Origin: Arenicola marina
Taxonomy: Eukaryota; Annelida; Polychaeta; Arenicolidae
Length of the DNA stretch: 64,000 bases
Assembly: GCA_964019135.1 (NCBI GenBank)
Contig: OZ025265.1
Span: 24,899,143-24,963,142 of the forward strand
Reading direction: 5' to 3'
In this document: one piece after another, positions 13,421-38,549 of the stretch
How positions within the stretch are numbered: position 1 is the first letter of the stretch
Layout of the letters: every line of letters starts with the position of its first letter
Translations under genes and position numbers: made by a program
Notes under the pieces: generated by a model
Seen by the model: the letters and a program-made list of their open reading frames with translations, nothing else
Databases searched by the model: none
Told to the model about the DNA's origin: nothing

Positions 13421-16200
13421 CTAATGCTGTTGTTCCGCTTCAGTCATATCAACGGATTAAGGTAGCCGTGAACCTTCGACAGTGTTTTCTACAATATTTT
13501 ACATAGGCCTACTAAATTCCCTGGGTACATGTACATCTAAAAAACAAAATTTGGAGGAAGAATATATGGCAAGATTTTTAGTGCAGCTCCTCTATAATAC
13601 CGGTAATTGTAAAGGTAACTAGATACATGGGGGTTCAAATCTGTAATTGAGGTGAATACACATAAACTGGATGACAAAGGAAATGAAAATGTAGGCCTGC
13701 ACGTTTATAGTTTGCTTTATGATTTTCACAGACAGAGTAGCTGTCACACCCAGCTCTGTCAATTTCCATGCAGGGGTGTATTTGTTACTACTCAATCTAA
13801 GTGCCTTCGCTAATTAGAGTTGCTAATTACATTCAGCATCTTCAGGGTTTAATATTCTTTTGGTCTGAGATTTGGTCAAATTACTGAAAATCATAATTTT
13901 AAATTTGGATTTGATTTATCCAGCAATGTGGAAATGTGGCTATTGTCATATTGTCATTTGCTTGATGAAATAGCACATAATATTTAATATCTTATTATGA
14001 CGAAATATCTTATTATGTCGGTCGGTCGTGTTTGCCTGTTTCTATATATGTCTGTGTCACACAAAAGCGGGAAGATTTCTTATGGCCTAACACCTGCATG
14101 CATCGATTCGCAGTCTTCAGTACCTAATAGCTACGCAATAGGGCTGCAACATATTTGTCACGCCGATCAAAAGGTCAAAGGTTAGGGTCACAACGATTTT
14201 TTGGCAAAAAATAACTGGAAACTCTTATATCTCTGTAAATATTGAAGCTAAAGATCTCTGGTTAGTTTCAGAATGTGCTACCCCCCAAGGCGCAGTTTTC
14301 GTGTATTGTTCACTTTTTGATGCGTAACACTCATTTTCGAGCAAAATGAGGTCATAGGTTTTGGGCAAAATGCAGTAAATGACCTCTGTCAGTTTTCACG
14401 TTTTTTGACACCATTAGCATCAAGCTATCGCTATGTTGTTCTAATATGTCATAGAAATATGAATTGAGATGACTTGTGTGGAATCTTAGAGTTTTCTGAT
14501 GCGTCACGTGACGTCACGATGACGTACAAAAAATCGTCAAAAATCAGGCAAACATCCTTAAAATGCGGCAGTAGCGTCATATTGTAGGGAAAGTGCTTCC
14601 TCGTATAGCAGCAAACTAAAAACGATACGTTCCTATCTTACTTCCGGTTCCAGGGCCGACGGCATTTCTCTTTGGGACTTCCCATGTCAAAGCCCTGGAT
14701 CGCTCAGGCTGGGAAATATGTTTTGTCGGGTATTTCACAAGTGCCTCTAGTAAACAATACCGCAAATTTTTAGTTAGTTAAACATGATATCTAGTAGCCA
14801 CAGTGCTTACCGTATGCGATTGGAGCAAAATGTGACGTCACAGGATTTTTTTGTAAATTTGACCCATGGTGAAAGATACGGCTTTTTGCTGTTATCAGAG
14901 GCTCCCATGGGCGTCCTATTCAAGCCATAATCCAATGCTTGCAGCCGCGGATGGATAATACTAAGCTGAGTCATAATCTGTGAACATGGTGCCATAGCCA
15001 TATTAATTTTTGGTAAGTAGTGGAAATCGTTTCACATGGGATCCTATGGGGGGAAATGAACTTGAGTGAATATGAACTGCTTCCGCTCGAACTATTTCAG
15101 TCTCCTTCGCCAAACAGTGAGGTACTATGAACGCAAAGCACGGCGGTCTCAATATTACTTTTTATTTCCTTGACAACGATGCCACTGACCTATTGATGAA
15201 GATACAGATTCTTGCCATTAAAAGAAAAATCGTCAAAATCAGATACAAATGCTGAAATTGCAATCGTTTCGCCAACTAGTTGCCAATAAGCATCTACAGA
15301 TCATTTAGTGCTTCAATCTGGCGGATGTTGCCCAGTTCTGGCGCCAGAGCGCTTCGAACTGGGACGACACCTTTGCGGGGCGGCCAATGATGAGTGAATG
15401 GAGGTTGTGTCCATCTTGAAAACAGCGTCAAAATTCAGAAAAAAAGAGCTGTGATCTTTGCGTCAAAAGGTAGAGAACATTCGTTTTCAGAGAACTAGTA
15501 AAAGAAACAATTTAGTTGCTATATCACTTCGCCTGCGGTGTTCTTTGTTTTTGACCTATGTCTTCGTGTCTCCGCAATGATAAACTAATGCAACTTTTGG
15601 CCATTTCGTCAAGCCATAGCGACTTCCGACTTCCGATTTATTTGACGTTGTACCTTAAATCCAGGGACAAATGCTGCCGTGGGTAACTTTTTTCGCGGTA
15701 CCGAAACGTGTGCGTCAAAAATGACGTCGAAGTTGACGTTACCCGACGAAATTGTGAAATCGTTTCATTTTCACCTTTTTTTATGCATTTGGTTTGACTT
15801 ATTTTGTATCAAAATTGACCATCATGCTCTGTATGATATAACTTTCACTTCTCATTGTTTTATTACCAAGAGTTTGAAATTTGTTTCACACAAAAGAATT
15901 GATTTTATTTTTGTCAAAGTGACAAATTTAGCCTGAATCAAATGTGAAACATACCCATGTGGTTAAGTGGAGCTTACATTCACACCTCGTCATACTGTAT
16001 TCTGGTGATTCAATTTTCTTTGTAAATGTTATACAATAAATATCAATGAAATGGGTTAGGTGCAAAATGGAGTCATGCCCCCAACTCTTAGGGTTATTTC
16101 TGCCATGTGAAGGATGTTATATCCTAGCAAGATGTGAGATATCCTCCATGAAAATACAGACATTTAACTTTTCTTTTACATTCAAGGTTTCATCGTTTTA
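13421..16200. other. non-coding stretch, nothing recognised
   Basis: 2.8 kb of AT-rich DNA. I checked both strands for splice-flanked exons and known protein motifs and found none. Poly-A/T runs and repeated TGACGTCA-like cores (14500-14530, 15720) occur but support no specific claim. Confidence 0.55.
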
Positions 16201-16329
16201 GTCTAATTTAGTCTACGTCTTTCAAGCGGATGACATAAGTATACTGCAATATACGTGGCATAGTCTTCATTGCAAGTTGTGTTTGCATTGCTCATACGTG
16301 GATTCCAGTTGTCCACCGCAACTTGGACA

Positions 16330-19300
16330 TTATGTGGTTGCCTCTTGCTTTGCTCGGTCACGGAGATCCCTTCGAAGAATTTTACCGCTGGCCAGCTTGG
16401 GGATGGCTTCAATGAAAACCACCCCTCCTCTCAGCTTCTTGTAGTGCGACACTTTATCTAAATACAAAGAAAAACGATTCGATAAATCATATAAATACAT
16501 TTGTTGATCGCCATTTGTTAAAAATGTTTGTTTCGATATTAATATCAAACAAGTTATAATTAAGGAGTACATCTAAGAGTGTTACAATTTACGAGTCTGC
16601 GCCTTGGACGGCTATGCATCTATATTTAGAAGTGTTACAGTTTAGGAGTATGTCTAAACGTGTTGCAGTTCAAGCATTTGTCACTAGGGGTGTTGCTGTT
16701 TAGGAATCATAGATACATAAAAATGTTAAGTTTAAGATGTGTATCTAGAATTGTTGACGTGATTATTTGCGTTATGATAAAACTGCTTTGAGGAAATCTG
16801 AAATACAATTATATTAATTATGCGATAATTAAGTAAGTAATATGACCAATATCAAAAGTGCTATTATAACAAGTTTTCTGTTTTGTGAGGCGAGAGGGAG
16901 GCACATTCGCCGCGACCGGTCATTGTGACGTTCAGTGCTCGGTCCTTGCGTTGGACCTCGGATTGTTACAAAGTTCAATGCTCGACCAATTTTCCTTTTC
17001 GATTTACCGATGGCAACGACTACATTATCACAATGATATGGTCTTCGTCATGTTTGTCAGTTTGCTAAGAACAATCCTCGATGCTAATCTGTGATTCTGC
17101 GACAATCAGAACATTGATTCATTCGTCTCCGCCGGGTTCGCATGTCTACATATTGTTGTAATAACATCTTTAAATACTCTCACACAGATAATTGGGTCAC
17201 ATGGTACCCGAGGAAACTCCGCATTGGTCAATAAGCGAATTGTTGGGAAATAATGAGGAATGATTGCACTGATATGTACGTTGTCACGGCAACGGAATGA
17301 GTTCACTTTGATGAAAAGATGACTAATATTAAATGACACAAAACAGTTCATATTTCTCTCTCTAACGTTTTTGAGGGAATACGTTCGCCAGCCTTGAATA
17401 AACGTACCTGCGACATGTCGTCCGATGTCCTGCTCCGTGACCTTGCTCCCTGGCTGTCTGACCACGTAGGCCCGGGGCAGCTCGCCCGCCATCTTGTCTG
17501 GGACGCCGATCACACCCACGTCAGCTACATCCGGGTGTTCGAGGATAACGGCTTCCAGCTCTGCTGGCGCCACCTAGCGAAGATCATTTTGTGCACATTT
17601 GAATAATTTTGGCTCGCGCTCAACTGCAGTTTTAATGAATTGATATAATTTGAGCCTTTGCCGGTGACGGTCGCATAGCCATTATGCTATGAGATATGTA
17701 AATGATACAATTGATGGAGCATGGAAATACAGCCATGAGATAGGAAAATACATGATATCTCATTTAGCGAAGACAAGATACCAGAGCATAGCAACCGTGT
17801 ACCCCACATCTCTGCAATATCAAACCACCCGATATCCCTTTAAGTGATATCCACTTCCGGTCAAAATTACAAAAAAACAGAACCCCCTGGACCCCCCTTA
17901 CTGTACCAAATGCATCGCTCTGTGAGAACATTTGACTTGAAACCCCTGAGAAAGATGTTGGAGGCCCCGTCTTAAAATATCTGCGTGCCTGTTGCCAAAG
18001 GTCAATCACCGAAAACAAGCACTGCATCAAGTTCTGCGCAGTTTGTACACAGCAGTGAAAAAACAATGGTCACAGGGCAACGAAAGTTTGAATCATAATC
18101 TGCCCGGAAAAAGGGTCGCAGAGGGCAGGGCCAGAGAATACAATCGACCAAGAATAAGAATTTGGGACCAAAATGGAATTAGTATGGAGGGGGGGGGGGT
18201 GTGTAGGGGGGTGTAAGAAGCTGTGCGTTGCGGCTGTGGGCCTGACAACCGAACAGAGTGGGTCTCCCGGGGCTACTTCCCAATGTTCAGTCGTTACACC
18301 AAGTAGGCTACTAGCTTGAACGCAAGATGTTACGGTCGTAGGACAGTTGGAAAAGGGACGATATGGCGTCACTTTCCAAACCACAAGGTTATGACACTAT
18401 GCATGCATCCACAAATTACATGTACATATTTTAATTTTACCGATCAAACTGTGCTACATTTATATGTAGAATACGTTTGACAAAGCTTGTATCTTCAGAA
18501 CATAGAACAGAGTACGTTTGACAAAGCTTGTATCTTCAGAAATAGTGTATGACTTCATTTTCAGTGCATTTCGCGTTCAGCGACACAGGCAAATTAAGGG
18601 AACTTGAAATTTAACCTTGTTTAAGAAGTATATCAGATTTCTATTTCATATAATTTGAATAATTTAAATTCTCTTTGTGGTTTCTTTGTAGAAATGCTGA
18701 ATGGTTAACCCGTTTACATGTTAACCCTCTTAACATCATACCCACCTAATGTCCCTGTCTACATCATGCCCACCTGATGTCCCTGGCTACATCATACCCA
18801 CCTGATGTCCCTGTCTACATCATACCCACCTGATGTCCCTGTCTACATCATACCCACCTGATGTCCCTGTCTACATCATACCCACCTGATGTCCCTGGCT
18901 ACATCATACCCACCTGATGTCCATATCTACAGCATACCCACCTGATATCCCTTGTACTTGATGAGTTCCTTGATCCTGTCCAGCACGACGAAGTGACCGT
19001 CGTTGTCGTAACACCCAAGATCGCCTGAAAGAACCGACACTGTAACAACTTTGTCTCAACGGAACGATAATGTCATGACACCGATGGTAAATTAGAACCA
19101 TTATGGGAAGACCACATCGTTGGAATTAGAACATCAAGAAATAAATGATTACTATATTTCGATTTTGTCTTTTTTTTTTACTGTCATTGCATTTTTGCCA
19201 GCATGAAACCCGGAGTAATTGTGTATTTGCTTCAGCATAGTAAATCGGAACCATTGTCTACATGTATATGCACCTTCTAGCAATCCCCCCTCACCGCTCA

Positions 19301-21197
19301 TCGTCATACATACAATCTGTTAATAAGGCGTCAATCCCGGCCTACCGGTGTGGATCCAGCCCTCCCTGTCCATCATGGCGGCCGTGGCTTCCGGTTTGTT
19401 GAGGTATCCCATCATGGTTTGCGGCCCGCGCAGACAGATCTCGCCGCTTTCTTTCGGCCCCAGCATCTCGCCCGTGGCCGGGTCGATGACCTGCAAGTCA
19501 CAGATCCATGCCTCACTCATAGGAAGCTCGTAACGCTATTTCTCTATATGTGGTATGTGTTACTGCGAATGCATCAATTCCCTGTAACTGAATATATTCT
19601 TCATACCACTGCGGATTAAGATACTAAGAGGACGATGGTACGCAAATACGGCAAAACATTGTGGGTTTGTTTTCGGGAAAGTGGACTATTCAACCTTTAC
19701 GGGAAACAATTAATCTAATCCTTTGCCTTTATTTGCAGATTTGAGGCGAAATATCTGATCTGCAATGACACAGTACGTAGCGCTGACCTTTGCTTCAACC
19801 CCCGGCAGGACAGTTCCCACGCTGGCAGGCTTCCGGTGTCCGTCTTCAGTCCTCTTCGCCGTGACAACACAAGTGGCCTCCGACATACCATACACTGCGA
19901 ACGTAAAAACCACATGGTTCAGGGTTTGACATAAATCGTGAAGATTCCAGCTAGCTTTGGTAGGGGGGGAGGGGTCGATTAGGGTGAGGGGAGAGGGAGA
20001 GGGGGGGGGGTGAAAAGGGGATCAGTTCCTGGTCAAAGCTGCATTGCAGCCGGCCTTTAGTTTCCCGGCCCCCACGTCATCAGCCTGTCGGCTCCCGCCA
20101 CCGATTACATGACGCACTGGAACGTTTTTCTTCGTCGTACAAATAAAAGTGACACCAAACATCCAGATAGCGGTTGTGTATCATATGTTTATGCGGCAAT
20201 TCTTGTTACTATTGTTCGGTGAATCTGCATGTTCATGTACATAATAACATAATGAAGTGTCAGATCTATGCATCATAACACATTTGTTTGACACAAGAAA
20301 GTATAGAATCCATAGCATTTGAGGTTCTTTCGTCGCCAACGTACGTGTTTAAATCATACTTGTGTAACTACGAAGGCCAAAAGTATGCATTCCAAAGACG
20401 TCGCTTTGTATATTTGCAAGTAAAAGTTCAATTTAATGATCCTGACATTGACAGATGGCCGGGTTTCCGAGTCTTGCCCGACACTCTTCTTCCACTTCCT
20501 GTTTGGTCGGCGCAGCCCCCGTGATCACTTTGCGCACACTGCTGACGTCATACTTATCAACTAATGAGGACTTGGCCAGCAGGACAAGGACTGGTGGCGG
20601 CGCCATAATTTCTTCTGGCTGTTTGGGGCGCATAAAAAGCGGAGAAGAATGTGAGGAGAATAGGGGTGGGGGGCATGGCAAGCTGATTTAATGTGAGTGA
20701 CCTTTTTTCATTTGACACAAAAGCGATACTTTCCTCATGCATTTTTCCGTACATTTACCACATCAACTCAACTCACAAAACAAACCCAAATTGGCTCATT
20801 GCATAATACCTACCTTGTACAGTTCCGTCGCCTTCAAGAATTGTTCAAAATCAAATCTTGGGTGTATGACCTGAGTCGTTCCCGCTATAATTTTCGGCAA
20901 GTAATCTGCCCCCAAGCCGCCGGCGTGGTACATGGGGAACACATTGATGGCGACGGTTCCTTGGTGTACTAAGCCCTCGATGGCGCAGAGAGTGGCCACC
21001 ACGTTACGGTGAGACAGGACGACTCCCTTGGGCAGACCGGTCGTCCCGCTGCTGAATACAATCACCGCCGGGGTCGTCGCGGGGTCCACACCCTGTCCGC
21101 CATCCCATTGTGACGTCACCGAACTCGGGGATGACGACAGCGATGTCATTGTGACGTCACATCCGTCGCTCTCCTCGCCGGATGTGATCAGCGTGAA
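16330..21197 (-). CDS. acyl-CoA synthetase (4CL-like), copy 1: exons 5-11 only, 5' exons absent
   Basis: Minus-strand exons, numbered as in the complete copy 3: 5 = 20814-21197, 6 = 20447-20618, 7 = 19788-19894, 8 = 19346-19490, 9 = 18942-19024, 10 = 17408-17573, 11 = 16330-16457. Lengths 384, 172, 107, 145, 83, 166 and 128 are identical to copy 3, all have AG/GT borders, and phases join without a stop. Motifs present: [10 protein letters not shown] (AMP/ATP loop), YGMSEAT, HTGD, the C-terminal hinge [13 protein letters not shown], and [11 protein letters not shown] with the catalytic Lys. It ends QEATT, with no peroxisomal SKL. Exons 1-4 are not present: upstream lies the 23-bp array and then the inverted copy 2. 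It is therefore either a headless pseudogene or a transcript with a novel start; a full enzyme cannot be made from this locus as assembled. Exon 5 differs from copy 3 at only two bases. Confidence 0.9.
18727..18942 (-). repeat. 28-bp minisatellite in intron 9 of copy 1, overlapping the 5' splice site
   Basis: Eight 28-bp units running from the exon 9 donor into the intron. On the gene strand each unit contains ATCAGGTGGGTATGATG, the same sequence as the true donor (ATCAG then GTGGGT). Reading on from exon 9 without splicing gives a TAG stop five codons into the first unit. Confidence 0.93.
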
Positions 21198-21754
21198 CTA
21201 AATAAATATGGTAAGATGTGAAAGGAATGGAACTCTTGGCCTTAGTGAACAGTGGAGTTGGTGGCAGGTTTAATTTCAACGAGCGGATGGTGTCTACAGG
21301 ATCGCATAATTAAGTAGTTACATAATAGTGTCTAGATGCAGAGGGCGACTGATTAGGGAGATCAGAACCTTGGGTTCCGTGCTTTGTGCTGTCGACTACA
21401 TGAGACAGTCGTTGCGAATATATCCTACCTAACATTAGACATAAGACAAGTCAAGCTAGGTGGCGCTACGTTATTCGACCGCTTCTGTCACGAATCACGA
21501 TTCTTGAAGGACAGTCAAATTAGTGATAATTTATGGCAAAATATTCATTGCATATTTATTACAGAAAATACTACTCAATGTGCCATATTTAATAGCGATA
21601 ACTGAGCGCTAAACTGTTCTGTGTTTGACTGAGAGCGTGTTTCAACAGGCATACGCTGGGTTACCATACAGTTATAGCAATGCGCGGCATACAATAGTCC
21701 AATAGACGTGTGCAGCGCCACCCTGGCGGGTGAAAGTGCGAATGTATGGAGGGT

Positions 21755-24700
21755 GTAACGACAGCGGAGACATAACAAGGTGCCGAGCGGAGAAATAACA
21801 AGGCGCCTAGCGGAGACATAACAAGGTGCCCAGCCGAGACATAACACGGCGCCTAGCAGAGACATAACAAGGTGCCCAGCGGAGACATAACACGGCGCCT
21901 AGCGGAGACATAACACGGCGCCTAGCGGAAACATAACACGGCGCCTAGGAGACATATAATAAGGCGCCTAGCAGACACATAACACGGCGCCTAGCGGAGA
22001 AATGACACGGCGCCTAGCGGAGGCATAACACGGCGTCTAGCGGAGACATAACACGCCGCCTAGCGGAGACATCACAAGGCACCTAGCGGAGACATAACAA
22101 GGCGCCTAGCGGAGATATAACACGGCGCCCAGCAAGATATAACACGGCGCCTGGCGGAGACATAACATAGCGCCTAGCGGAGACATAACACGGCGCCCAG
22201 CGAGACATAACAAGGCGCCTAGCAGACCCATAATAAGGCGCCTAGCGGAGACATAACACAGCGCCTAGCGGAGACATAACACGGCGATCAGCGAAGATAT
22301 AACACCGCGCCTAGCGGAAACATAACACGGCGCCCAGCGAAAACATAACACGGCGCCCAGCGAGACATAACACGGCGCCTAGCAGAGACATAACAAGGCG
22401 CCTAGCAGACACATAATAAGGCGCCTAGCGGAGACATAACACAGCGCCTAGCGGAGACATAGCACGGCGATCAGCGAAGACATAACACGGCGCCTACCGG
22501 AGACATAACACGGCGCCCAGCGGAAACATAACACGGCGCCCAGCGAGACATAGCACGGCGCCCAGCGGAGACATAACACGGCGCCTAGCGGAGACATAAC
22601 ACGGCGATCAGCGGAGACATAACATGGCGCCTAGCGGAGAAATGACACGGCGCCCAGCGGAGACATAACATGGCGCCTAGCGGAGACATAACACGGCGCA
22701 CAGGGGAGACATAACACGGCGCCTAGCGGAGACATAACAAGGCGCCTATCGGAGATATAACACGGCGCCCAGCGAGATATAACACGGCGCCTGGCGGAGA
22801 CATAACATAGCGCCATAGCGGAGACATAACACGGCGCCCAGCGAGACATAACACGGCGCCTAGCAGAGACAAAACAAGGCGCCTAGCAGACACATAATAA
22901 GGCGCCTAGCGGAGACATAACACAGCGCCTAGCGGAGACATAGCACGGCGATCAGCGAAGACATAACTCGGCGCCTAGCGGAGACATAACACGGCGCCCA
23001 GCGGAAACATAACACGGCGCCCAGCGAGACATAGCACGGCGCCTAGCAGAGACATAACAAGGCGCCTAGCAGACACATAATAAGGCGCCTAGCGGAGACA
23101 TAACACGGCGTCTAGCGAAGACATAACATGGCGCCCAGCCGAGACATAACACGGCGCCTAGCGGAGACATAACACGGCGCCTAGCGAAGACATAACACGG
23201 CGCCTAGCGAAGACATAGCACGGCGCCCAGCGGAGACATAACACGGCGCCTAGCGGAGACATAACACGGCGCCCATCGGAGACATAACATGGCACCTAGT
23301 GGAGACATAACACGGCGCCCAGCGGAGACATAACACGGCGCCTAGCGGAGACATAACACGGCGCCTAGTGGAGAAATAACACGGCGCCTAGCGGAGACAT
23401 AACACGGCGCCTAGTGGAGACATAACACGGCGCCTAGCAAAGACCTAACACGGCGCCCAGCGGAGACATAACACGGCGCCTAGTGGAGACATAACACGGC
23501 GCCCAGCGAGATATAACACGGCGCCTGGCGGAGACATAACATAGCGCCTAGCGGAGACATAACACGGCGCCCAACGAGACATAACACGGCGCCTAGCAGA
23601 GACATAACAAGGCGCCTAGCAGACACATAATAAGGCGCCTAGCGGAGACATAACACAGCGCCTAGCGGAGACATAGCGCGGCGATCAGCGAAGACATAAC
23701 ACGGCGCCTATCGGAGATATAACTAGCGCCCAGCGGAAACATAACACGACGCCCAGCGAGACATAGCACGGTGCCTAGCAGAGACATAACAAGGCGCCTA
23801 GCAGAGACATAATGAGGCGCCTAGCGGAGACATAACACAGCGCCTAGCGGAGACATGACACGGCGCCTAGTGGAGACATAACACGGCGATCAGCGGAGAC
23901 ATAACACGGCGCCTAGCGGAGACATAACACGGCGCCCAGCGGAGACATAACACGGCGCCCAGCGGAGACATAACATGGCGCCTAGTGGAGACATAACACG
24001 GCGCCCAGCAGAGACATAACACGGCGCCTAGCGGAGACATAACACGGCGCCTAGTGGAGACATAACACGGCACCCAGCGGAGACATAACATGGCGCCTAG
24101 CGGAGACATAACATGGCGCCTAGCAAAGACATAACACGGCGCCCAGCGGAGACATAACACGGCGCCTAGCGAAGACATAACACGGCGCCCAGCGGAGACA
24201 TAACACGGCGCCTAGTAGAGATATAACACGGCGCTCAGCGGAGGCATAACATGGCGCCTAGCGGAGACATAACACGGCGCACAGCGGAAACATAACACGG
24301 TGCCTAGCGGAGACATAACAAGGCGCCTATCGGAGATATAACACGGCGCCCAGCGAGATATAACACGGCGCCTGGTGGAGACATAACATAGCGCCAAAGC
24401 GGAGACATAACACGGCGCCCAGCGAGACATAACACGGCGCCTAGCAGACACATAATAAGGCGCCTGGCGGAGACATAACATAGCGCCTAGCGGAGACATA
24501 ACGCGGCGCCCAGCGAGACATAACACGGCGCTTAGCAGAGACAAAACAAGGCGCCTAGCAGGCACATAATAAGGCGCCTAGCGGAGACATAACACAGCGC
24601 CTAGCAGAGACATAACACGGCGATCAGCGAAGACATAACACGGCGCCTAGCGGAGACATAACACGGCGCCCAGCGGAAACATAACACGGCGCCCAGCGAG

Positions 24701-27397
24701 ACATAGCACGGCGCCTAGCAGAGACATAACAAGGCGCCTAGCATACACATAATAAGGCGCCTAGCGGAGACATAACACAGCGCCTAGCGGAGACATAACA
24801 CGGCGCTTAATGGAGACATAACACGGCGATCAGCGGAGATATAACACGGCGCCTAGCGGAGACATAACACGGCGCCCAGCGGAGACATAACACGGCGTCT
24901 AGCAGAGACATAACATGGCGCCCAGCCGAGACATAACACGGCGCCTAGCGGAGACATAACACGGTGCCTAGCGAAGACATAACACGGCGCCCAGCGGAAA
25001 CATAACACGGCGCCTAGCGAAGACATAGCACGGCGCCCAGCGGAGACATAACATGGCGCCTAGTGGAGACATAACACGGCGCTCAGCGGAGGCATAACAT
25101 GGCGCCTAGCGAAGACATAACACGGCGCCCAGCGGAGACATAACACGGCGCCTAGCGAAGACATAACACGGCGCCCAGCGGACACATAACACGGCGCCTA
25201 GTGAAGACATAACACGGCGCCTAGCGGAGACATAACACGGCGCCCATCGGAGACATAACATGGCACCTAGTGGAGACATAACACGGCGCCCAGCGGAGAC
25301 ATAACACGGCGCCTAGCGGAGACATAACACGGCGCCCAGCGGAGACATAACACGGTGCCTAGCGGAGACAAAACACGGCGCCCAGCGGAGACATAACATG
25401 GCGCCTAGCGGAGACATAACACGGCGCCCAGCGGAGACATAACACGGCGCCCAGCGGAGACATAACATGGCGCCTAGTGGAGACATAACACGGCGCCCAG
25501 CAGAGACATAAAACGGCGCCTAGCGGAGACATAACACGGCGCCTAGTGGAGACATAACACGGCACCCAGCGGAGACATAACATGGCGCCTAGCGGAGACA
25601 TAACATGGCGCCTAGCAAAGACATAACACGGCGCCCAGCGGAGACATAACACGGCGCCTAGCGAAGACATAACACGGCGCCCAGCGGAGACATAACACGG
25701 CGCCTAGTAGAGACATAACACGGCGCTCAGCGGAGGCATAACATGGCGCCTAGCGGAGACATAACACGGCGCACAGCGGAAACATAACACGGTGCCTAGC
25801 GGAGACATAACAAGGCGCCTATCGGAGATATAACACGGCGCCCAGCGAGATATAACACGGCGCCTGGTGGAGACATAACATAGCGCCAAAGCGGAGACAT
25901 AACACGGCGCCCAGCGAGACATAACACGGCGCCTAGCAGACACATAATAAGGCGCCTGGCGGAGACATAACATAGCGCCTAGCGGAGACATAACGCGGCG
26001 CCCAGCGAGACATAACACGGCGCTTAGCAGAGACAAAACAAGGCGCCTAGCAGGCACATAATAAGGCGCCTAGCGGAGACATAACACAGCGCCTAGCAGA
26101 GACATAACACGGCGATCAGCGAAGACATAACACGGCGCCTAGCGGAGACATAACACGGCGCCCAGCGGAAACATAACACGGCGCCCAGCGAGACATAGCA
26201 CGGCGCCTAGCAGAGACATAACAAGGCGCCTAGCAGACACATAATAAGGCGCCTAGCGGAGACATAACACAGCGCCTAGCGGAGACATAACACGGCGCTT
26301 AATGGAGACATAACACGGCGATCAGCGGAGATATAACACGGCGCCTAGCGGAGACATAACACGGCGCCCAGCGGAGACATAACACGGCGTCTAGCAGAGA
26401 CATAACATGGCGCCCAGCCGAGACATAACACGGCGCCTAGCGGAGACATAACACGGTGCCTAGCGAAGACATAACACGGCGCCCAGCGGAAACATAACAC
26501 GGCGCCTAGCGAAGACATAGCACGGCGCCCAGCGGAGACATAACATGGCGCCTAGTGGAGACATAACACGGCGCTCAGCGGAGGCATAACATGGCGCCTA
26601 GCGAAGACATAACACGGCGCCCAGCGGAGACATAACACGGCGCCTAGCGAAGACATAACACGGCGCCCAGCGGACACATAACACGGCGCCTAGTGAAGAC
26701 ATAACACGGCGCCTAGCGGAGACATAACACGGCGCCCATCGGAGACATAACATGGCACCTAGTGGAGACATAACACGGCGCCCAGCGGAGACATAACACG
26801 GCGCCTAGCGGAGACATAACACGGCGCCCAGCGGAGACATAACACGGTGCCTAGCGGAGACATAACACGGCGCCCAGCGGAGACATAACATGGCGCCTAG
26901 TGAAGACATAACACGGCGCCCAGCAGAGACATAACACAGCGCCTAGCGGAGACATAACACGGCGATCAGCGGAGACATAACACGGCGCCTAGTGGAGACA
27001 TAACACGGCACCCAGCGGAGACATAACATGGCGCCCAGCGAGACATAACACGGCGCCTGGCGGAGACATAACAAGACGCCTAGCAGACACATAATAAGGC
27101 GCCGTGTTATATCTCCGCTAGGCGCCTTGTTATGTCTCCGCTAGGTGCATTGTGATGTCTCCGCTAGGCGGCGTGTCATGTCTCCGCTAGACGCCGTGTT
27201 ATGCCTCCGCTAGGCGCCGTGTCATTTCTCCGCTAGGCGCCGTGTTATGTGTCTGCTAGGCGCCTTATTATGTGTCTCCTAGGCGCCGTGTTATGTTTCC
27301 GCTAGGCGCCGTGTTATGTCTCCGCTGGGCACCTTGTTATGTCTCCGCTAGGCGCCGTGTTATGTCTCGGCTGGGCACCTTGTTATGTCTCCGCTAG
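21755..27397. repeat. 23-bp minisatellite in intron 4, centre of the inverted duplication
   Basis: About 245 units with AGCGGAGACATAACACGG then CGCCT; the unit contains the palindrome GGCGCC. On the plus strand the array reads in one orientation from 21755 to 27103, then flips at 27104 and runs inverted to 27397. The inverted part mirrors variant units at about 21804-22129 (for example CCTAGGAGACA, AAATGACACGG, ACATCACAA), locating the duplication junction. A block of about 1.49 kb is duplicated in tandem (features near 23867 and 24212 recur at 25359 and 25704). Open frames such as [13 protein letters not shown] are products of the repeat. Confidence 0.96.
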
Positions 27398-30016
27398 GCA
27401 CATTGAGTAGTATTTTCTGTAATAAATATGCAATGAATATTTTGCCATAAATTATCACTAATTTGACTGTCCTTCAAGAATCGTGATTCGTGACAGAAGC
27501 GGTCGAATAACGTAGCGCCACCTAGCTTGACTTGTCTTATATCTAATGTTAGGTAGGATATATTCGCAACGACTGTCTCATGTAGTCGACGGCACAAAGC
27601 ACGGAACCCAAGGTTCTGATCACCCTAATCAGTCGCCCTCTGCATCTAGACACTATTATGTAACTACTTAATTATGCGATCCTGTAGACACCATCCGCTC
27701 GTTGAAATTAAACCTGCCACCAACTCCACTGTTCACTAAGGCCAAGAGTTCCATTCCTTTCACATCTTACCATATTTATTTAGTTCACGCTGATCACATC
27801 CGGCGAGAAGAGCGACGGATGTGACGTCACAATGACATCGCTGTCGTCATCCCCGGGCTCTGTGAGGTCCCAATGGGACGGCGGACAGGATGTGGACCCG
27901 GAGAAGACCCCGGCGTTGATTATATTCAGCAGCGGGACGACCGGTCTGCCCAAGGGAGTCGTCCTGTCTCACCGTAACGTGGTGGCCGCTCTCTGCGCCA
28001 TCGAGGGCCTGGTGTCTCGAGGAACCCCCGCCATCAATGTGTTCCCCATGTACCACGCCGGCGGCTTGCGGGCAGATTACTTGCCGAAAATTATAGTGGG
28101 AACGACTCAGGTCATATACCCAAGATTTGATTTTGAACAATTCTTGAAGGCGACGGAAATTTAAGGTAGGTATTACGCATGTGTTATGTCAAATAAAATA
28201 GTCACGTAGTCGATAAAATAAAAGGTCACTCACATTAAATCAGCTTGCCATGCCCCCCCCCCCCTCCCCCCCCCCAACTCCCCCCCCCCCTTCCTTATAT
28301 TCTCCTCACACTCTTCTCCTCTTTTTATGTGCCCCAAACAGCCAAAAGAAATTGTGGCGCCACCACCGGTCGTTGTTCTGCTGGCCAAGTCCTCATTGGT
28401 TGATAAGTATGACGTCAGCAGTGTGCGTAAAGTGACCACGGGTGGTGCGCCGACCAAACAGGAAGTGGAAGAAGAGTGTCGGGCAAGACTCGGAAACCCG
28501 GCCATCTGTCAAAGTCAGGATCATTAAATTGAATTTTCACCTACAAATATACAAAGCGACGTCTTTGGAATGCATACTTTTGGCCTTCGTAGTTACACAA
28601 GTATGATTTAAACACATACGTTGGCGACGAATGAACCTCAAATGCAATGGTTTCTATACTTTCTTGTGTCAAACAAATGTATTATGATGCATGGATCTCA
28701 CACTTCATCATGTTATTATTTAAATGGACATGCAGATTCACGGGAAAATAATAACAAGAATAGCCGCATAAACATATGATATACAACCGCTACCTAGATG
28801 TTTGGTGTTACTTTTATTTGTACGACGAAGAAAAACGTTCCAGTGCGACATGTAATCGGTGGCGGGAGCCGACAGGCTGATGACGTGGGGGCCGGGAAAC
28901 TAAAGGCCGGCTGCAATGCAGCTTTGACCAGGAACTGATCCCCTTTTCACCCCCCCCCCCACCCCTCCCTCTCCCCTCACCCTCATCGATCCCTCTCCCC
29001 GCTACCACCGCTAGCTGGAATCTTCACGATTTATGATAACCCTGAACCATGTGGTGTTTACGTTCGCAGTCTACGGTATGTCGGAGGCCACTTGTACTGT
29101 CACGGCGAAGAGGAATGAAGACGGACACCGGAAGCCTGCCAGCGTGGGAACTGTCCTGCCGGGGAGTGAAGCAAAGGTCAGCGCCACGTACTGCGTCATT
29201 GCAGATCAGATATTTCGCCTCAAATCTGCAAATAAAGGCAAAGGATTCGATTAATTGTCACCCGTAAAAGTTGAACCTGACATTTTCTCGAATACCATCG
29301 TCCCCTTAGTATCTTATGACACATTTCCAGTATGCAGTCTCCAATTAGTGGGTTAATCCGCAGTGTTATGATGAATATATTCAGTTTCAATGAATTGGTG
29401 CAGTAACACATACCACATATAAAATAATAGCGTTACGGGTTTACTCGGACTGAGGCATAGATCTGTGACTTGCAGGTCATCGACTCGGCCACCGGCGAGA
29501 TGATGGGACCGGAAGAACACGGCGAGATCTGTCTTCGCGGGCCCAAACCATGATGGGATACCTCAACAAACCGGAAGCCACGGCCGCCATGGTGGACAGG
29601 GACGGCTGGATCCACACTGGTAGGTCGGGATTGACGCCTTATTAACAGATTGTATGACGATGAGCGGTGAGGGGGGATTGCTAGAAGGTACATATGCATG
29701 TAAACAATGGTTCCGATTTTCTATGCTGAAAGAAATACACAATTACTTCGGGTTTCATGCTGGCAGAAAAGCAATGACAGTAAAAAAAAGACAAAATCGA
29801 AATATAGTAATCGTTTATTTCTTGATGTTCTAATTCCAACGAAGTGGTCTTCCCATAATGGCTCTGATTTACCATCGGTGTCATGACATCATCGTTAAGT
29901 TGAGACAAAGTTGTTGCAGTGTCGGTTCTTTCAGGCGATCTTGGGTGTTACGAAACGACGGTCACTTCTACGTGCTGGACAGGACCAAGGAACTCATCAA
30001 GTACAAGGCATATCAG

Positions 30017-30712
30017 GTGGGTATGATGTAGACAGGGACATCAGGTTGGTATGATGTAGACAGGGACATCAGGTGGGTATGATGTAGACAAGGACATCAG
30101 GTGGGTATGATGTAGACAGGGACATCAGGTGGGTATGATGTAGACAGGGACATCAGGTGGGTATGATGTAGACAGTGACCTCAGGTGGGTATGATGTGGA
30201 GAGGGACATCAGGTGGGTATGATGTAGACAGGGACATCAGGTGGGTATGATGTAGACAGTGACCTCAGGTGGGTATGATGTGGAGAGGGACATCAGGTGG
30301 GTATGATGTAGACAGGGACATCAGGTGGGTATGATGTAGACAGGGACATCAGGTGGGTATGATGTGGAGAGGGACATTAGGTGGGTATGATGTAGACAGT
30401 GACCTCAGGTGGGTATGATGTGGAGAGGGACATCAGGTGGGTATGATGTAGACAGGGACATCAGGTGGGTATGATGTAGACAGGGACATCAGGTGGGTAT
30501 GATGTAGACAAGGACATCAGGTGGGTATGATGTAGACAGGGACATCAGGTGGGTATGATGTAGACAGGGACATCAGGTGGGTATGATGTAGACAGGGACA
30601 TCAGGTGGGTATGATGTAGACAGGGACATCAGGTGGGTATGATGTAGACAGGGACATCAGGTGGGGTATGATGTAGACAGGAACGTCAGGTGGGTATGAT
30701 GTAGACAGGGAA
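30017..30712 (+). repeat. 28-bp minisatellite in intron 9 of copy 2, overlapping the 5' splice site
   Basis: About 25 units, same unit as in copies 1 and 3. The first unit starts at the exon 9 donor (TATCAG then GTGGGTATG). Variant blocks GACAGTGACCTCAGG and GTGGAGAGGGACAT alternate in a higher-order pattern at about 30170-30430, showing recent local duplication. Confidence 0.94.
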
Positions 30713-31974
30713 AGCACGTGGTTATCCCATAGTAGTGCCAATGAACATGAAGTATCAGGTTACTATCGTGTCACAGAGACACAAGCTGTCTGATGGTTAT
30801 GTTCTCAGAGACAACGAGTATCACACACGTTTCCTGTGGTAGAGCCGAAGGAATATACATGGTTACAGTATCGCTGGGACCATGGGTGTCACTGTGTTAC
30901 AACATTTAGGTTAAATCAGCTTGTTACAACATCGCAGAGACAGCGGAAATCATGCCGTTATCCTATAGGGGAGACAAGATATATACGGTTGTTATCTTAT
31001 CAGAGAGAGAGAGAGTGGATATTAGGTTGCCATGTTATCACAGGGACAAGATATTTGATGTACTTTTCACATGCGCCGTCTTAGATACTTTTTGTTATTT
31101 GAATCAAACTAAAACTATCGTGCTTATGGTTTATAATTCGTGGAGTAAAACAACCGTTTCAATATAAAACTGCGATATCACACAGAATACCAAAAGGATA
31201 TCATAACTCAGTCTAGGGTTGCTGGAGCGAACTTTGGCGCAACGAGACAGACGGTACATGTAATCAGGTGAACTATTCAGCATTTCTACGAAGAAACCAC
31301 AAAGAGAAGTTACCTTATTCAAACTATATGAAATAGAAATCTGGTATATATTTCTTAAACAAGGTGAAATGTCAAGATCCCTTAATTTTGCATGTGTCAC
31401 TGAACGCAAAATGCACTGAAAAGAATGTCAAACACTATTCCAATGATACTTCCTCATACAAGAGATGTTTTGAGGATACAAGCTTCGTCAAGCGTATTCT
31501 TCGTATAAATGTAGCAACGTTTGATCGTATTGTAATTTGGAGATGCATGCATAATCTCGTAACCTTGTAGATAAGAAAGGGACGAATTTTTTTCTCTGTC
31601 CCTGCCCCTTCGATCCCTTTTCCTGTCAGATTTTGATTCAAACTTTCGTTGCCTTGTGGCCATTCTGTTTTCACTGCTGTGTGTGTACACGCTGCGCAGA
31701 ACTTGGTGCAGTGCTTGTTTTCGGTAAATGACGCTAGAGAACAGGCGCGCCGAGGATTTTGAAAGCCCGGTCGCCAACTTTTGTCTCAGGTTTTTCAAGT
31801 CAAACTTGCTCACAGAGTGATGCCGCATCGGATACAGTAAGGGGATCCAGTTTGTGCAATTTTCACCGAAAGTGGTGCCCATATTGAAATGGTCAGTTTC
31901 ACAGTTTATTGTTTATTTGTATGCATGTGCCGTTACCTGTTGCGGGTGAAACGGGAATAAAAGAAAATAACACG

Positions 31975-32200
31975 ATTTACGCAGTAAATCAGTTTAATGA
32001 TGCCGCGAGATCCATCATAACGTTTTGCGTACAAGGTTCTTTGTCAACCCCCAGCCTCCGTCACGTGACTCATTCGAGGCCATGTGACCACACAGACACA
32101 GACGAGTGCGTCCGATCGCTATCTTGCTGCGGGACGGTCACAACACTTCACAATTAAATTTCGCTCGTTTTCCCACCGTCCATCCCCATCGCCGCCGTTC
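31975..32200 (+). repeat. dispersed repeat inside intron 9 of copy 2, inverted partner at 38550-38790
   Basis: Shared landmarks with the partner (inverted): GTAAATCAGTTTAATGATGC, GATCCATCATAACGTT, CCTCCGTCACGTGACTC, GGCCATGTGACCACACAGAC and ATCCCCATCGCCGCC. The segment is not in the equivalent intron of copy 1, so it was inserted after the duplication or lost from copy 1. No coding capacity; family unknown. Confidence 0.7.
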
Positions 32201-33244
32201 TGCCTTCTGGTCAGTTTCTTTTTTATTTGTACATAACCTCACCATTTTGTATTAGGCGTGTTGGTGGTGTCTCCTGCCCCACCTTTGGTGCAAACACACG
32301 CATTATAGGTCTCATGCCGGCAGCAATTGCTTTGCACAGTCGCTGATACGTCAGGTCAGGTTGCTCACGCGCGTACCGATGCCGGCTGGTCATTACATAT
32401 TCTTGGGTTATTAATTAACCCCATGTTTCAACCTTACCATGCAGGCGTTTGTTGTTTGCCCCAAACATAGCCGCGAGTCCGCCGAGTGTGTCAAGGGGAC
32501 CTTCATAAATAAAAACTGCTGGTCTGGTGGTTATAATATATTATAAAAAAATGATATCTTCGCTAGGTAGCGCCAGCCGAGCTGGAAGCCGTTATCCTCG
32601 AACACCCGGATGTAGCTGACGTGGGTGTGATCGGCGTCCCAGACAAGATGGCGGGCGAGCTGCCCCGGGCCTACGTGGTCAGACAGCCAGGGAGCAAGGT
32701 CACGGAGAAGGACATTGAACAACATGTCGCAGGTACGTATTCCCTCAACAGCGTTAGAAAGAGAAATGTTAACTGTTATTTTGTGTCAATTTAATATAAT
32801 ATTAGTATTTCATTTTCACTTATTCCGTTGCCGTGACAATGTATCAGTGCAATAATTGCTCATTATTTCCCAACAATTCGCTTATTGACCAATGCGGAGT
32901 TTTCTCGGGTACCACGTGACCCAGTTATCTGTGTGTGAGTATTTAAAGAAGCTATTACAACAATATGTAGACATGAGACCTGGCGGAGACGAATGAATCA
33001 ATCTTCTGATTGTCGCAGAATCACAGATTAGCATCGAGGATTGTCCTTAGCAAACTGACGAACATGACGAAGACCATAATTTTAAGATAATGTAGTTGTT
33101 GCCATCGGTAAGTCGAAAAAGAAAATTGGTCGAGCATTAAACTTTATAACAATCCGAGGTCCAATGCAAGGACCGAGCACTGAGCTAATCGGCGTCACAA
33201 TGGAGAGGGGCAAGGGGTATTTCCGTTCCTCGGGAATGGGCTTT

Positions 33245-33345
33245 TTATTTCACGGTGAACTGGAAATGAGTAAAATAATTCTTCGTGAACTGGGAATGAG
33301 GAAAATAATTCTTCGTGAACTGGGAATTGGGAATCAGCCGAACGC
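33245..33345 (+). repeat. short 30-bp tandem repeat in intron 10 of copy 2
   Basis: Three units with GTGAACTGGGAATGAG and AAAATAATTCTTC. Related single fragments continue to about 33510 (GTGATCTGGGAA). Gives a spurious open frame with the repeated peptide KIILRELG. Confidence 0.75.
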
Positions 33346-34281
33346 CGTGCTCAAGGATATTCATTAATCGAGAACTGGGAATTTTAATATTAAATAACCG
33401 TGTATTGGGAAATCGTCAATTTGGTATCATGTATCCTCCCTTCCATTGTATGCGGTGGGGTTCTCCTTTAAATTCATCGTGACCGGGGAATAAAAAAGTT
33501 TATTCTTCGTGATCTGGGAACACGACCCCCTCACCCCCCCTCCTCACAATGGCCAGTTGCCCAGAATCGTAAACTGTAACAGTCTAAGATTTACTCCTTA
33601 ATTGCAACTTGTTTAATAATAACATCGTTTTTTTTGTATTTAGATAAAGTGTCGCATTACAAGAAGCTGAGAGGAGGGGTGGTCTTCATTGAAGCCATCC
33701 CCAAGCTTGCCAGCGGTAAAATTCTTCGAAGGGATCTCCGTCACCGAGCAAAGCGAGAGGCAACTACTTGATGTACAAAACTCATGCTGCGGGGAACAAC
33801 TGGAATCCACGTGTGAGCATTGCAGACACACCATTACAGTGAAGACAATACCACATATGGTCCAGCATACATATGTCATCCGCTTGAAAGACGTTCTAAA
33901 CGCTTTAATGCATGCGTTTAATATCCATTTTTGTTTGTTTAAAACCTTTCATTGTGTATCAAGAAAAGTTTAGACCTTCATGTAAGGATCTTCGCTGCAC
34001 GTTGGCACTGACAGTTATCAATAAACTATCTATCTATATTACCAGAAAGTATCATTTCATTTCATTTATCTTCTGCAACTGTGATTAGTAAAACACGAAA
34101 ACTAACAAAGAAAAGTATCAACACTTGCACTGTTTCGTTTGTATCACCTATAGGACAAGAGATAGAGAACACAGGCGCCCACTGGCGAGCTCCAGTGCTA
34201 CTAAGAGAAAGTACTGTTGCCGCCTAGTGGCCGCCCGTGTTATCCGTCACGAACCTGAGCGATAATATAGGAATGGCAACA

Positions 34282-34625
34282 TGTCTAGTAGACTAAGAAG
34301 CCGACGTATTACCAGTGCAGTAAAGCGACAGGGTCGTCTAATAGACAGAAAGGCAAGGAAGTTCCTCTGGTACTTAAATAAGCTAAAAACGTTTGAAACT
34401 ATTGATGGTCGCCCGATTATTGATTTGGCCTACCTTGCTAATCTACATATATTGTGAGCAGTTTTACGTTCTTTTCCAAGTATGTGTGAAAAGAAAACTA
34501 ACCGTGAAAAAGTTAATAGTTTGTTAGAAATCGACCACGTCAAACATATGATAAAAAAAGTTTATGTCGCCGCTTGTTTAGAAAGATACGCATGTCAATA
34601 TATAGACACCCCCCAGTTGGCATAG
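34282..34625 (+). other. unrecognised basic open stretch, decayed
   Basis: A Lys/Arg-rich reading of about 110 residues begins at an ATG at 34282 (MSSRLRSRRITSAVKRQG) and is not continuously open. I do not recognise it. Composition and surroundings (relic exons, LINE fragments) suggest a fragment of a mobile or captured gene rather than an active host gene. Confidence 0.3.
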
Positions 34626-34995
34626 AAACTTTTTATCCGTGAATTGAATTGATTAACTTGTGATGTTTTGCATCGACCTGTGTCTTAGTGTAATAATCAT
34701 GGGAAAAACAAAAAAAGGTACTTGCTCAGTAAAAGGTGTAGCATAACGTTCAGCCCTTGTAAGTATCAAACTGTTGAATTTTATGGCAACGCCATGGGTG
34801 CTATGCTGTCATATAACATTTTTACCAAATTATGGACAATTGACAGATAGTCTGTTGCTCATAATAAAAACAGATTTAGGTGACCGTACTTTTTTTTAAC
34901 TGAAGAAGGAAATATTGAGCCAACTATGTGTCAATTGTGAAGCATTTCTGATGGAATTTAATATCTGGCATGAAGCTAGCCCTTGCCCTTAAGCT

Positions 34996-35080
34996 TGTCT
35001 CCGGGTCAGCGAACATAAACTTAGGCTTGTTTTCTTGGAACTCACAGAAAATAAATGTCTTATTTCACCTGAATGATGAT
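34996..35080 (-). pseudogene. relic of exon 4, acyl-CoA synthetase copy 4
   Basis: Diverged copy of copy 3 exon 4 (48019-48131) in the same orientation. Matching landmarks on the plus strand are CTCCGGGTC, AACTTAGGCTTGTT, GGAACTC and CATTT/CACCTGAATGATGATA around the former acceptor. Only about the first 75 bp of the exon are recognisable and the frame is lost. Together with 37085-37262 it shows a fourth gene copy once lay here. Confidence 0.75.
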
Positions 35081-35385
35081 AAAATATAATATATTGCATT
35101 AAACTGAGGGAGAAAATGTTAGCTGGAGTAATTATGGTAAATCAGGATCATGAAGCTAGGTGCATTTCAGCAAAAAATCAGCATTCGTATGAATCTATAA
35201 GACGATGAAGGTTCGATTAACAGCATTCCCAACAATGGGGAGACTATTCTTAAGAAAATGAGTCGATTGAAATTGGTTGCGAAAAGATTTACATCGGCAA
35301 AATTTTAAAAAGGGAAAAGGGTGTGTGACTTTGTGTACCATACAATGTTAGCCTCAATTGAAGTAACCATTCAAAGTGAAAAAAA

Positions 35386-35613
35386 ATGGTGTCAAATATA
35401 CAGTACAATTATGTCGGAGCAAGGCTGGGGCAAGTGTTAACAAAATGCACCATAGACAAAGGTTTGCGATCCTTTCAATATAAATTAGTTACCAGAGCGT
35501 TGCCGACTAACAGATGTTTATACATCTGTAAACTGTGGGATTCAAAGACGTGCTCCTCCTGTCGCAATAGCGTAGAAACAATAGAACAGATGTTCTGGGA
35601 TTGCACCAAATAA
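35386..35613 (+). mobile_element. LINE ORF2 C-terminal fragment (zinc-binding tail)
   Basis: 75-residue open frame containing FQYKLVTRALPTNRCLY and CSSCRNSVETIEQMFWDC. This matches the tail domain after reverse transcriptase in L1/Tx1-type ORF2 proteins (two Cys, then E-x2-E-Q-MFW-x-C). No upstream RT is attached here; an isolated 3' fragment. Confidence 0.8.
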
Positions 35614-35740
35614 AGTTCACCATGAAAAATCATATCATTCTTTTAGCAAAGAAATATATTTACGATTGTAGATGCAGGGCAAAAGTATATGTATTTCGCA
35701 ATATTTTGTAAAATAATTCTTAAATATTATACGCTCGAAC

Positions 35741-36015
35741 TCGAACTCGGCGTAGATGAATGAATGAATAGAGGAGCCAGGGAAGTTAACTTCTGTCTGC
35801 GGGAACTCGGCGTAGATGAATGAATGAATAGAGGGGCCAGGGAAGTAGGCTTCTGTCTCGGCGTAGATGAATGAATGAATAGAGGAGCCAGGGAAGTCAA
35901 CTTCTGTCTGCGGGAACTCGGCGTAGATGAATGAATGAATAGATGAGCCAGGGAAGTAAGCTTCTGTCTCGGCGTAGATGAATGAATGAATAGAGGAGCC
36001 AGGGATGTAAAATTC
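35741..36015. repeat. minisatellite with internal AATG microsatellite, five units of 47-60 bp
   Basis: Units contain GGCGTAGATGAATGAATGAA and TAGAGGAGCCAGGGAAGT, alternating between forms with and without TGCGGGAACTC. Spurious minus-strand frame repeats IHSFIYAE. Confidence 0.9.
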
Positions 36016-37084
36016 TGTCTGTGGTCCGGTACACAAAATCGGTGCCTGGTAATCTCATCAAAGCAAATGCCACTTGGTATCTATGTAATGCGCCAAGGGC
36101 CGTATTCATAAACGCCACTTACGCTACGCCACTAGACTCGGTGTCACCGTGGAAAATATTGATTCATTGGCACAAACAGTTCCGGAAGTTATCAATGTCT
36201 TCACATCTATGAAGATAACAGTATCCAATACATAGGCCTATGCATAAATCTACATTAAATAATATTTAAATGTAAAATTAGGGGAATATATGATAATCTA
36301 TATGGTAATACCGGGAACCTTGTGAGATATTAATTTAGTAACTTTCTGCCACAATGTTAAAAAGTCATTAAATATTTCAGACTTGTACAGCATGTCACTG
36401 GATTATGCTGTAACATAATAAGCTAAAAACAATGAGTGGTCACCGAGACCAATTTATCTTAGAAATCCCCAACTTGTTGGGTTATCTTGGTACGCAAAGT
36501 TACTCTTCAAGTACATTGTTCCAGGAATCTGGCCTACTGGACAACTAATTCCATTCCATCCGTATTGCGTCTACGATGTATGTCACTATCAGATAATCAA
36601 TGACTGCTATGGCCATGGCATTTGTAGCTACCTGCCCACGGCACTAGCTCCACACGCAAGCTCGCAAAACGATTTAGGTTCCAGCCACAATATCTCGCCT
36701 TATGTACTCATTTCATTCATTTGCCAGATGTTCATATGCTGACATGCATAAAGTTCATTGCAAGCCTTTGATTAATGCAGATGTTTCTCTGACACGGGGG
36801 AAACAACGCCGAGAGGTATTGCAACGTACGCTAGTTCTAGTCTGGTTCCCAGGCACTAACTTCGCTCATCAGTATATGAGTACGGGCGGCGGTACCAGCT
36901 TACGCTAGTTCTAATGTTTCGCCAGGGAGCGCTTTTGTATTAAGCGCGAATTGTCTTCAGGAAAGTGCTAAAAGTGAAGAGGATTTCTTAATCATGAGCA
37001 CCACCACAGAGAGCTGGTGAGGCTAAGACAAAAATGCAATTTTCGTGCGTAACTTACGAGGGGATTATGACTTACACCCAGCGC
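36016..37084. other. non-coding stretch, nothing recognised
   Basis: Lies between the relic exons 4 and 3 of copy 4 and is probably its old intron with later insertions. The tract GCGTAGGAACT-like CTAGTTCTAGTCTGGTTCCC near 36830 and again partially near 36900 (ACGCTAGTTCTA) is a short local repeat. No exon. Confidence 0.5.
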
Positions 37085-37262
37085 GTGCGGGGATCACTAG
37101 ACATACCCCTGTCGACAGCGCGCTCAGCAGGCCGATGACATAATCTGCCGAATCGTGTTTACATGAAGCCATCGTAGGAGGCCATACCCGGTTCGTGTGC
37201 ACCAGTCGATTACCTCTTCGATCGTACAGGTTCGATTTGTTTCTTTATCAATCAGAATTGAA
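37085..37262 (-). pseudogene. relic of exon 3, acyl-CoA synthetase copy 4
   Basis: Matches copy 3 exon 3 (48672-48879) on the minus strand. Recognisable residues include IDKETNRT, EEVIDW and RTGYGL, and the reverse of GTCGACAGCGCGCTCAGCAG. Internal small deletions break the frame and the acceptor AG is lost. It is upstream of relic exon 4 in gene order, as expected for a decayed minus-strand gene. Confidence 0.8.
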
Positions 37263-37559
37263 GCATAAATAATAAAAAGATTTAATCTGCCGAATTTCCC
37301 AGGGCATTTAGCTAGATTGGGACAGATTGGGACGGAATAAAATCATATGGTTTTATTGAAACATGACAAGGCTAAATTAACTAACAAATACTCCGTCCTT
37401 ACTGAGACCAACAAAAAGGCAGGAATTCCTTCCTTGTTTTATTTCCCACATTTAGAAATCACGCGATAATTCTTGATACTATTGGCCACTAATATCTATG
37501 CTTCTGGAAAACACAGTACACGTATCTCTAATTCGCGTCAAACAAGGACATTGTTTTTG

Positions 37560-37800
37560 TTAGATAATGTCATTGTTCCGGCCAGACAGTAACCTGTTTT
37601 CTTTTTATCATGCCATTATATGGCTCCTGTCAGCCAATCACAATGCTATTGTCAGATAATCACGTGGTTCTTGTCAGGCACAAATATTTCTATTCTCAAA
37701 CAGTCACATTGCACTTTTCAGACAATGGCATTGTTCTTTTCAGACAATGGCATGGTTCTTATCGGACAATCATGCTAAATTTCGCGGACAATGTGATATT
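37560..37800. repeat. degenerate tandem repeat, unit about 25 bp
   Basis: Repeated TCAGACAATGGCATTGTTCT and related units. Old and diverged; open frame across it is spurious. Confidence 0.6.
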
Positions 37801-38520: not shown

Positions 38521-38549
38521 GTATTAATAATTATAGTAGAGCAAGAAGC

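Follow-up and report, generated by a model that had tools for sequence, protein, structure and literature searches.

The 3′ half of an acyl-CoA synthetase gene in the Arenicola marina genome lies head to head with its own mirror image, and the turn between the two copies falls on a six-base palindrome, GGCGCC, within the repeat unit of an intronic minisatellite. The locus belongs to a class of DNA accident already known, the internal inverted duplication, which here would have come about through microhomology fold-back or a template switch. We consider it reasonably probable that both copies, together with two stray 5′ exons beyond them, are the remains of one former gene, here called gene D (minus strand, ~16.2-37.3 kb), and that reverse copying placed a second 3′ half inside intron 3 of this gene.

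The window, that is the whole stretch of DNA analysed, comprises 64,000 nucleotides (G000:C20:24899143-24963142). The genome has 867 Mb in 762 contigs, and the locus is internal, at ~24.9 Mb on a 33-Mb scaffold. The mitochondrial contig C762, with its genes named from the open reading frames, shows the gene order of annelids. A bindin search gave no match, nor did it give one in any of 14 controls, and it is thus uninformative. The window was joined to 60 kb on each side, giving a 184-kb region, and tandem repeats were masked before comparison. All positions are window coordinates, with negative numbers lying to the left of the window.

Mirror-image arms

A head-to-head inverted duplication around a minisatellite had been proposed in the initial annotation. 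It was confirmed by self-BLAST, which aligned 18733-20662 with 30225-28298, and 20800-21584 with 28179-27397, in mirror image (E = 0). Copy 1 (16215-22129, minus strand) is 5,915 bp long and copy 2 (27098-33912, plus strand) 6,815 bp, with 4,968 bp between them (22130-27097).

Both copies carry the same seven 3′ exons (a-g) in mirror order, as had been described. In copy 1, these are exons g (16330-16457), f (17408-17573), e (18942-19024), d (19346-19490), c (19788-19894), b (20447-20618) and a (20814-21197), followed by the first array units, and exons 1-3 are absent. Copy 2 starts with ~13 reversed array units (to 27399), and continues with exons a (from 27784), b (28342-28513), c (29070-29176), d (29476-29619), e (29935-30016), f (32567-32732) and g (33644-33771). 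The introns, previously called near-identical, are so only beside the array, where identity is 100% over one stretch of 107 bp and 98.8% over another of 240 bp. At a greater distance, 250-column blocks of exons and introns taken together showed mostly 82-95% identity between the copies, and several showed 39-76%.

Gene cluster neighbourhood

Exons were searched for over the 184 kb by tblastn, using the ten exon peptides of gene C (E up to 0.01). Complete exon sets were found for gene A (plus strand, -35742 to -28407), gene B (minus strand, -10671 to -1518) and gene C (minus strand, 40350-49385); copies 1 and 2 gave exons a-g only. Gene C (40207-49385), which is complete in exons 1-3 and a-g and has a 23-bp array of its own at 46760-47377, served as the yardstick for gene D. 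Its exons 3 and a-g matched the AMP-binding (PF00501, profile positions 92-384) and AMP-binding_C (PF13193, 1-76) domains. Copy 1 matched PF00501 at 159-384 and PF13193 at 1-76, thus having an AMP-binding domain without the N-terminal part. The best PDB matches were luciferases, Drosophila CG6178 and 4CL. By these sequence matches, the genes are classified as acyl-CoA synthetases of the ANL superfamily, luciferase/4-coumarate-CoA-ligase-like.

We placed the array in intron 3, because only three exons were found upstream of exon a in the full gene C; a further 5′ leader exon is possible. Both copies had been thought to be truncated in intron 4. Their ends fall inside the array, and thus in intron 3 by this exon count.

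Several other features of the neighbourhood were recorded. A 28-bp minisatellite follows exon e at 18733-18952, 30012-30725 and 41813-43037, as well as in gene A (-31056 to -29860) and gene B (-9208 to -7984). Its unit is built from the 5′ splice site of exon e itself, with ATCAG/GTGGGTATG in each unit. Exact CAGGTGGGT occurred 101 times in the five 28-bp arrays (real donors included) versus once elsewhere in the 184 kb, and splicing at a later donor of the array would introduce a stop. A 15-bp array (~6.9 kb, -876 to 6051) lies upstream of gene B, and shorter relatives of it lie upstream of gene C (50099-50874 and 51496-51698). A more diverged, partial relative with exons f, e, d and a was found to the right of the window, at 90773-93527 on the minus strand. 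Its exon f has 94% protein identity, and its exons e, d and a have 41-75%, a sharp mosaic that is perhaps due to gene conversion. Further clusters of related enzyme genes were present at C20:22.46-22.57 Mb and C20:27.26-27.41 Mb, among the matches listed; in the latter, again among the matches listed, exon f matches on the plus strand repeatedly face minus-strand gene fragments ~3 kb away.

To the left of the window, a 200-N gap (-18729 to -18530; C20:24880413-24880612) lies between inverted copies of the 30.7-49.7 kb segment, which holds gene C type sequence and the 3′ part of copy 2. The gap is probably the unassembled centre of a larger palindrome, and the neighbourhood is therefore hard to assemble.

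The turn in the 23-bp array

The minisatellite array (21763-27103, minus strand) consists of 233 units, as determined by TRF, with the 23-bp consensus AGCGGAGACATAACACGGCGCCT. It is a single array that continues the arm of copy 1. The spacer at 22130-27097 is copy 1's own intronic array, and not foreign sequence. At up to 2 mismatches, the unit was found 184 times in forward and 9 times in reverse orientation in the whole genome. The 184-kb region alone gave identical counts, and the unit is therefore specific to the cluster at this threshold. The matches were distributed over the array of copy 1 (146), gene B (19), gene C (19) and copy 2 (9, reversed), and no unit was found in gene A at up to 2 mismatches.

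Across the ~232 units of the array of copy 1, the self-complementary hexamer GGCGCC is present 168 times. Junction J1, where the sequence turns, lies on a GGCGCC at 27098-27103, and its inner partner is the GGCGCC at 22124-22129. The 51 bp of copy 2 from 27098 onwards mirror, without a mismatch, the 51 bp of copy 1 that end at 22129. Inverted microhomology of at least 6 bp was found in 0.74% of 200,000 random position pairs in the array (P 0.0074). The ~13 reversed units of copy 2 (27097-27399) are in register with 21822-22129 of copy 1, with 94.8% identity over 308 bp; the best other register listed for them had 87.9%. The initial annotation had suggested that the event used sequence within the intron. 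This is borne out, with the turn now resolved to the GGCGCC of the 23-bp unit.

Two features of the array appear to be younger than the turn. Copy 2 is without ~245 bp present at the array edge of copy 1 (~180 bp of unique sequence and ~3 units), and GTGCC flanks both edges of the missing stretch, which looks like a later microhomology deletion. The array of copy 1 contains a block repeat of 1,492 bp (98.9% over 1,652 bp), and some of today's spacer has therefore probably been added since the duplication.

State and divergence of the copies

In copy 1, exons a-g keep one open frame of 394 codons with intact splice sites, and the N-terminal part is absent. Copy 2 is a pseudogene. It has three disabling changes: exon a has lost 2 bp, which creates a TAA at its end, and exons d and e have each lost 1 bp. 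The two copies differ by a synonymous divergence of 0.109. The expectation that such a repeat would be short-lived fits poorly with this divergence of 0.11 and with the three disabling changes.

The same values bear on whether two haplotypes or two loci could have been joined within the array during assembly. Long arrays are hard to assemble, and the assembly does break nearby, at the 200-N gap, with inverted copies of the 3′ part of copy 2 on either side. However, there is no N in the window, and both the synonymous divergence and the number of disabling changes are too high for a hairpin read. Furthermore, the similarity of the outer flanks stops ~115-140 bp past the stop codons, unlike in alleles. 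Repeats may account for these sharp ends: a 1.6-kb interspersed repeat (14014-15620) lies in the left flank of copy 1, and several other repeats lie between copy 2 and gene C. The former was found in at least ~40 places, with 81-86% identity among the matches listed. The 3′ part of copy 2, together with the stray exons described below, was assembled at three places, and the turn itself at one. Overall, we regard an assembly artefact as very improbable, and an allelic join of copies 1 and 2 seems unlikely.

Over exons b-g, synonymous divergence was 0.108 between copies 1 and 2, versus 0.152 between copy 1 and gene C, and 0.172 between copy 2 and gene C. This argues against an inverted triplication (ODIRA-like or DUP-TRP/INV-DUP), in which copy 1, copy 2 and gene C would be the three copies and the stray exons an unrelated older relic, because copies made in one event should be equally old, barring later conversion. 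The order of the three (minus, plus, minus) would agree with a triplication, as would the tail-to-tail position of copy 2 and gene C and the end of their similarity near the stop codon. A second turn would be required between copy 2 and gene C, and the sequence around the midpoint of this interval showed no inverted similarity. In addition, most introns of gene C hardly align with copy 1 or copy 2, and the next exons after copy 2 are 3 and 2 rather than a-g, with gene C following at 40.2 kb. A triplication seems improbable.

Divergence was uneven along the copies. Exon a of copy 1 has zero synonymous differences from genes B and C, and the adjoining intron is 98.8-100% identical to copy 2. For exons f and g, each copy is closer to gene C than to the other copy, and the same holds for exon d of copy 2. 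Since copy 1 resembles B and C in exon a and copy 2 in the neighbouring intron, and exons d, f and g vary in their affinity, the pattern points to patchy gene conversion after the duplication.

Over exons b-g, comparison with gene C gave dN/dS ratios of 0.32 (copy 1) and 0.24 (the disabled copy 2), and comparison of the two copies with each other gave 0.44. The ratio fails to separate the intact from the disabled copy, and is therefore no evidence that copy 1 is working.

Stray 5′ exons and the outer junction

It had been assumed that both copies simply lost their 5′ ends. The assumption is not supported in this form, because exon 3-like and exon 2-like pieces lie past copy 2, on the minus strand and in the order expected if copy 2 sits inside an intron of the gene. 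Between copy 2 and gene C, tblastn gave minus-strand matches to exon 3 (34957-35049) and, in two pieces, to exon 2 (37086-37252). The exon 3 relic, including some upstream intron, spans 34993-35105 and is 76.6% identical to gene C over 107 bp. The exon 2 relic (37070-37272) is 72.7% identical over 234 bp, and its frame is broken. Two weak matches to gene C, collinear with the relics, lie between them (E 8e-4 and 0.19).

In the whole genome, all 6 matches of the exon 2 relic fell on its three copies or on exon 2 of genes A, B and C. The exon 3 relic matched its own three copies, and genes A, B and C at 78-81%; the other 30 of its 36 matches were confined to the first 40-61 bp, which is the edge of an interspersed repeat. 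To the left of the window, both relics are found again next to two other pieces of copy 2 that carry exons f and g.

The outer junction zone (J2, 33913-34992) begins with 239 bp that have no relative outside the cluster. A genome-wide repeat follows (34152-34992) and cuts into the stray exon 3. No readable junction was found by lenient BLAST of the gene C 5′ half and the copy 1 array edge against 33700-40600, nor by BLAST of gene A intron 3, 33905-35000, the copy 1 3′ flank and gene C intron 3 against the 184 kb. No array unit with up to 6 errors occurs between 33600 and 40600. Exon 1 of gene D was found neither by tblastn over the 184 kb nor by lenient BLAST of 33700-40600. Part of exon 3 and the intron between exon 3 and the array are also missing.

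The resulting order, g-f-e-d-c-b-a, array, inverted a-g, exon 3, exon 2, fits reverse copying of the gene into its own intron. An identical final order, including exons 3 and 2 past copy 2, is predicted if a partial tandem duplication via the array gave gene D a second direct a-g block, and an inversion in place of the block beside exon 3 came later. In this cluster, duplications in direct orientation occur commonly (genes B and C). However, this route needs two events, and the inversion breakpoint would have to fall on GGCGCC in both partners by chance, so we consider it unlikely.

A probable fold-back within gene D

Reverse copying of gene D into its own intron is favoured because of the 51-bp exact mirror, the GGCGCC in both partners, the in-register units and the ordered stray exons on the minus strand. 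From these features we infer a break, fold-back with annealing and end capture, in a single event. A DNA end broken inside the 23-bp array would have folded back on itself, its GGCGCC tip (27098-27103) annealing to the GGCGCC of a unit nearer to exon a (22124-22129). Synthesis from this primer would then have copied the array and exons a-g, to just beyond the stop codon. Finally, the far side of the break, near exon 3, would have captured the new end, and the array stretch enclosed by the hexamers would have stayed as a loop. Later changes, as read from the sequence, would include growth of the copy 1 array, loss of the ~245 bp between GTGCC repeats in copy 2 and its decay, overwriting of parts of copy 1 by A/B/C-type sequence, and invasion of the outer junction by a repeat.

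Several points stand against this explanation. The stray exons, at ~73-77% identity to gene C, are more diverged than exons a-g (88-99%), and could be an older relic. Their excess divergence means that descent of all parts from gene D would need gene conversion of a-g or an earlier death of the 5′ half. Exon 1, part of exon 3 and the intron leading from it to the array are missing. As for the fold-back, J2 is unreadable, and the duplication is internal, whereas published cases adjoin terminal deletions or translocations.

The array may have been involved in more than one event. The B and C sides share 98.9-100% identity over ~15 kb, a stretch that starts at -18388 and takes in the 23-bp array (-4263 to -3646 versus 46760-47377). 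Past the array, within a few hundred bases, identity in 300-bp bins falls to 82-99%, which marks the edge of a second rearrangement or of a conversion near the array. That the GGCGCC-bearing minisatellite is a fold-back hotspot, which reshaped the cluster at J1, at the B/C edge and maybe at the 200-N gap, is a rather doubtful proposition.

Comparison with known systems

Human fold-back inverted duplications (Hermetz et al. 2014, PMC3907307) similarly have, in the part of that report available, an inverted copy, a spacer and short inverted homology at the spacer edge. The spacers described there measure 766-70,466 bp (median 3,428), and 13 of the 21 sequenced junctions have inverted microhomology of 2-8 bp (PMC3907307). 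The 4,968-bp spacer and the 6-bp microhomology found here are inside these ranges. Unlike the human cases presented in that part (PMC3907307), the duplication here is on the kilobase scale and internal, without terminal deletion, translocation or ring, and its loop is a tandem array with a palindrome in its units. The inverted copy lies beside the original with a spacer, and GGCGCC is present at both partners. The locus is internal, and relics of 5′ exons follow the inverted copy, where the clinical definition has a terminal deletion, a translocation or a ring. The locus works like a fold-back with end capture, and is outside the human clinical class.

MMBIR template switching (PMC2621351) and ODIRA inverted triplication (PMC4689423), as far as the accessible text of both papers describes them, likewise produce an additional copy in inverted orientation, joined at microhomology or at short inverted repeats. 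In contrast to these, our locus has one readable junction, and no third direct copy was seen right after copy 2. Earthworm metallothionein genes, probably from the same phylum, also have large intronic minisatellite arrays, and repeat inversion between tandem gene duplicates, tandem exon duplications and inversions are reported in the excerpts of the paper at hand (PMC12783039). The gene is a different one, and those excerpts mention no half-gene copied in inverted orientation with its turn on a palindrome of the repeat unit. In soybean, the GmIRCHS locus is also an inverted pseudogene pair in an enzyme gene family cluster; in the sections available, it differs in being tail to tail, and in having a known promoter and detected dsRNA that silences paralogues (PMC13051633).

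If a minus-strand transcript of gene D spanned both arms, it would form a long hairpin RNA matching the intact paralogues. Both arms contain 305 of the 1165 21-mers of the a-g message of gene C, and 273 of the 1165 of that of gene A. Silencing of paralogues by such a hairpin would be only remotely possible, because Capitella teleta is reported, in the portion of the study available, to be without an endogenous siRNA pathway (PMC8915122).

Our literature search found no paper uniting minisatellite, palindrome, inverted duplication and breakpoint, a statement that applies to this search only. Inverted duplications have been studied mostly in patients, tumours and yeast. Here, an assembled animal genome contains a fixed one with an unusually clear turn that can be placed to the single base, and the unit register shows which units were copied. 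The general view of how inverted duplications form is unchanged, and a palindromic minisatellite unit is now linked to fold-back. In gene D, the event would have left 5′ exons stranded behind the gene's own inverted 3′ half, an arrangement easily misread as two truncated head-to-head genes.
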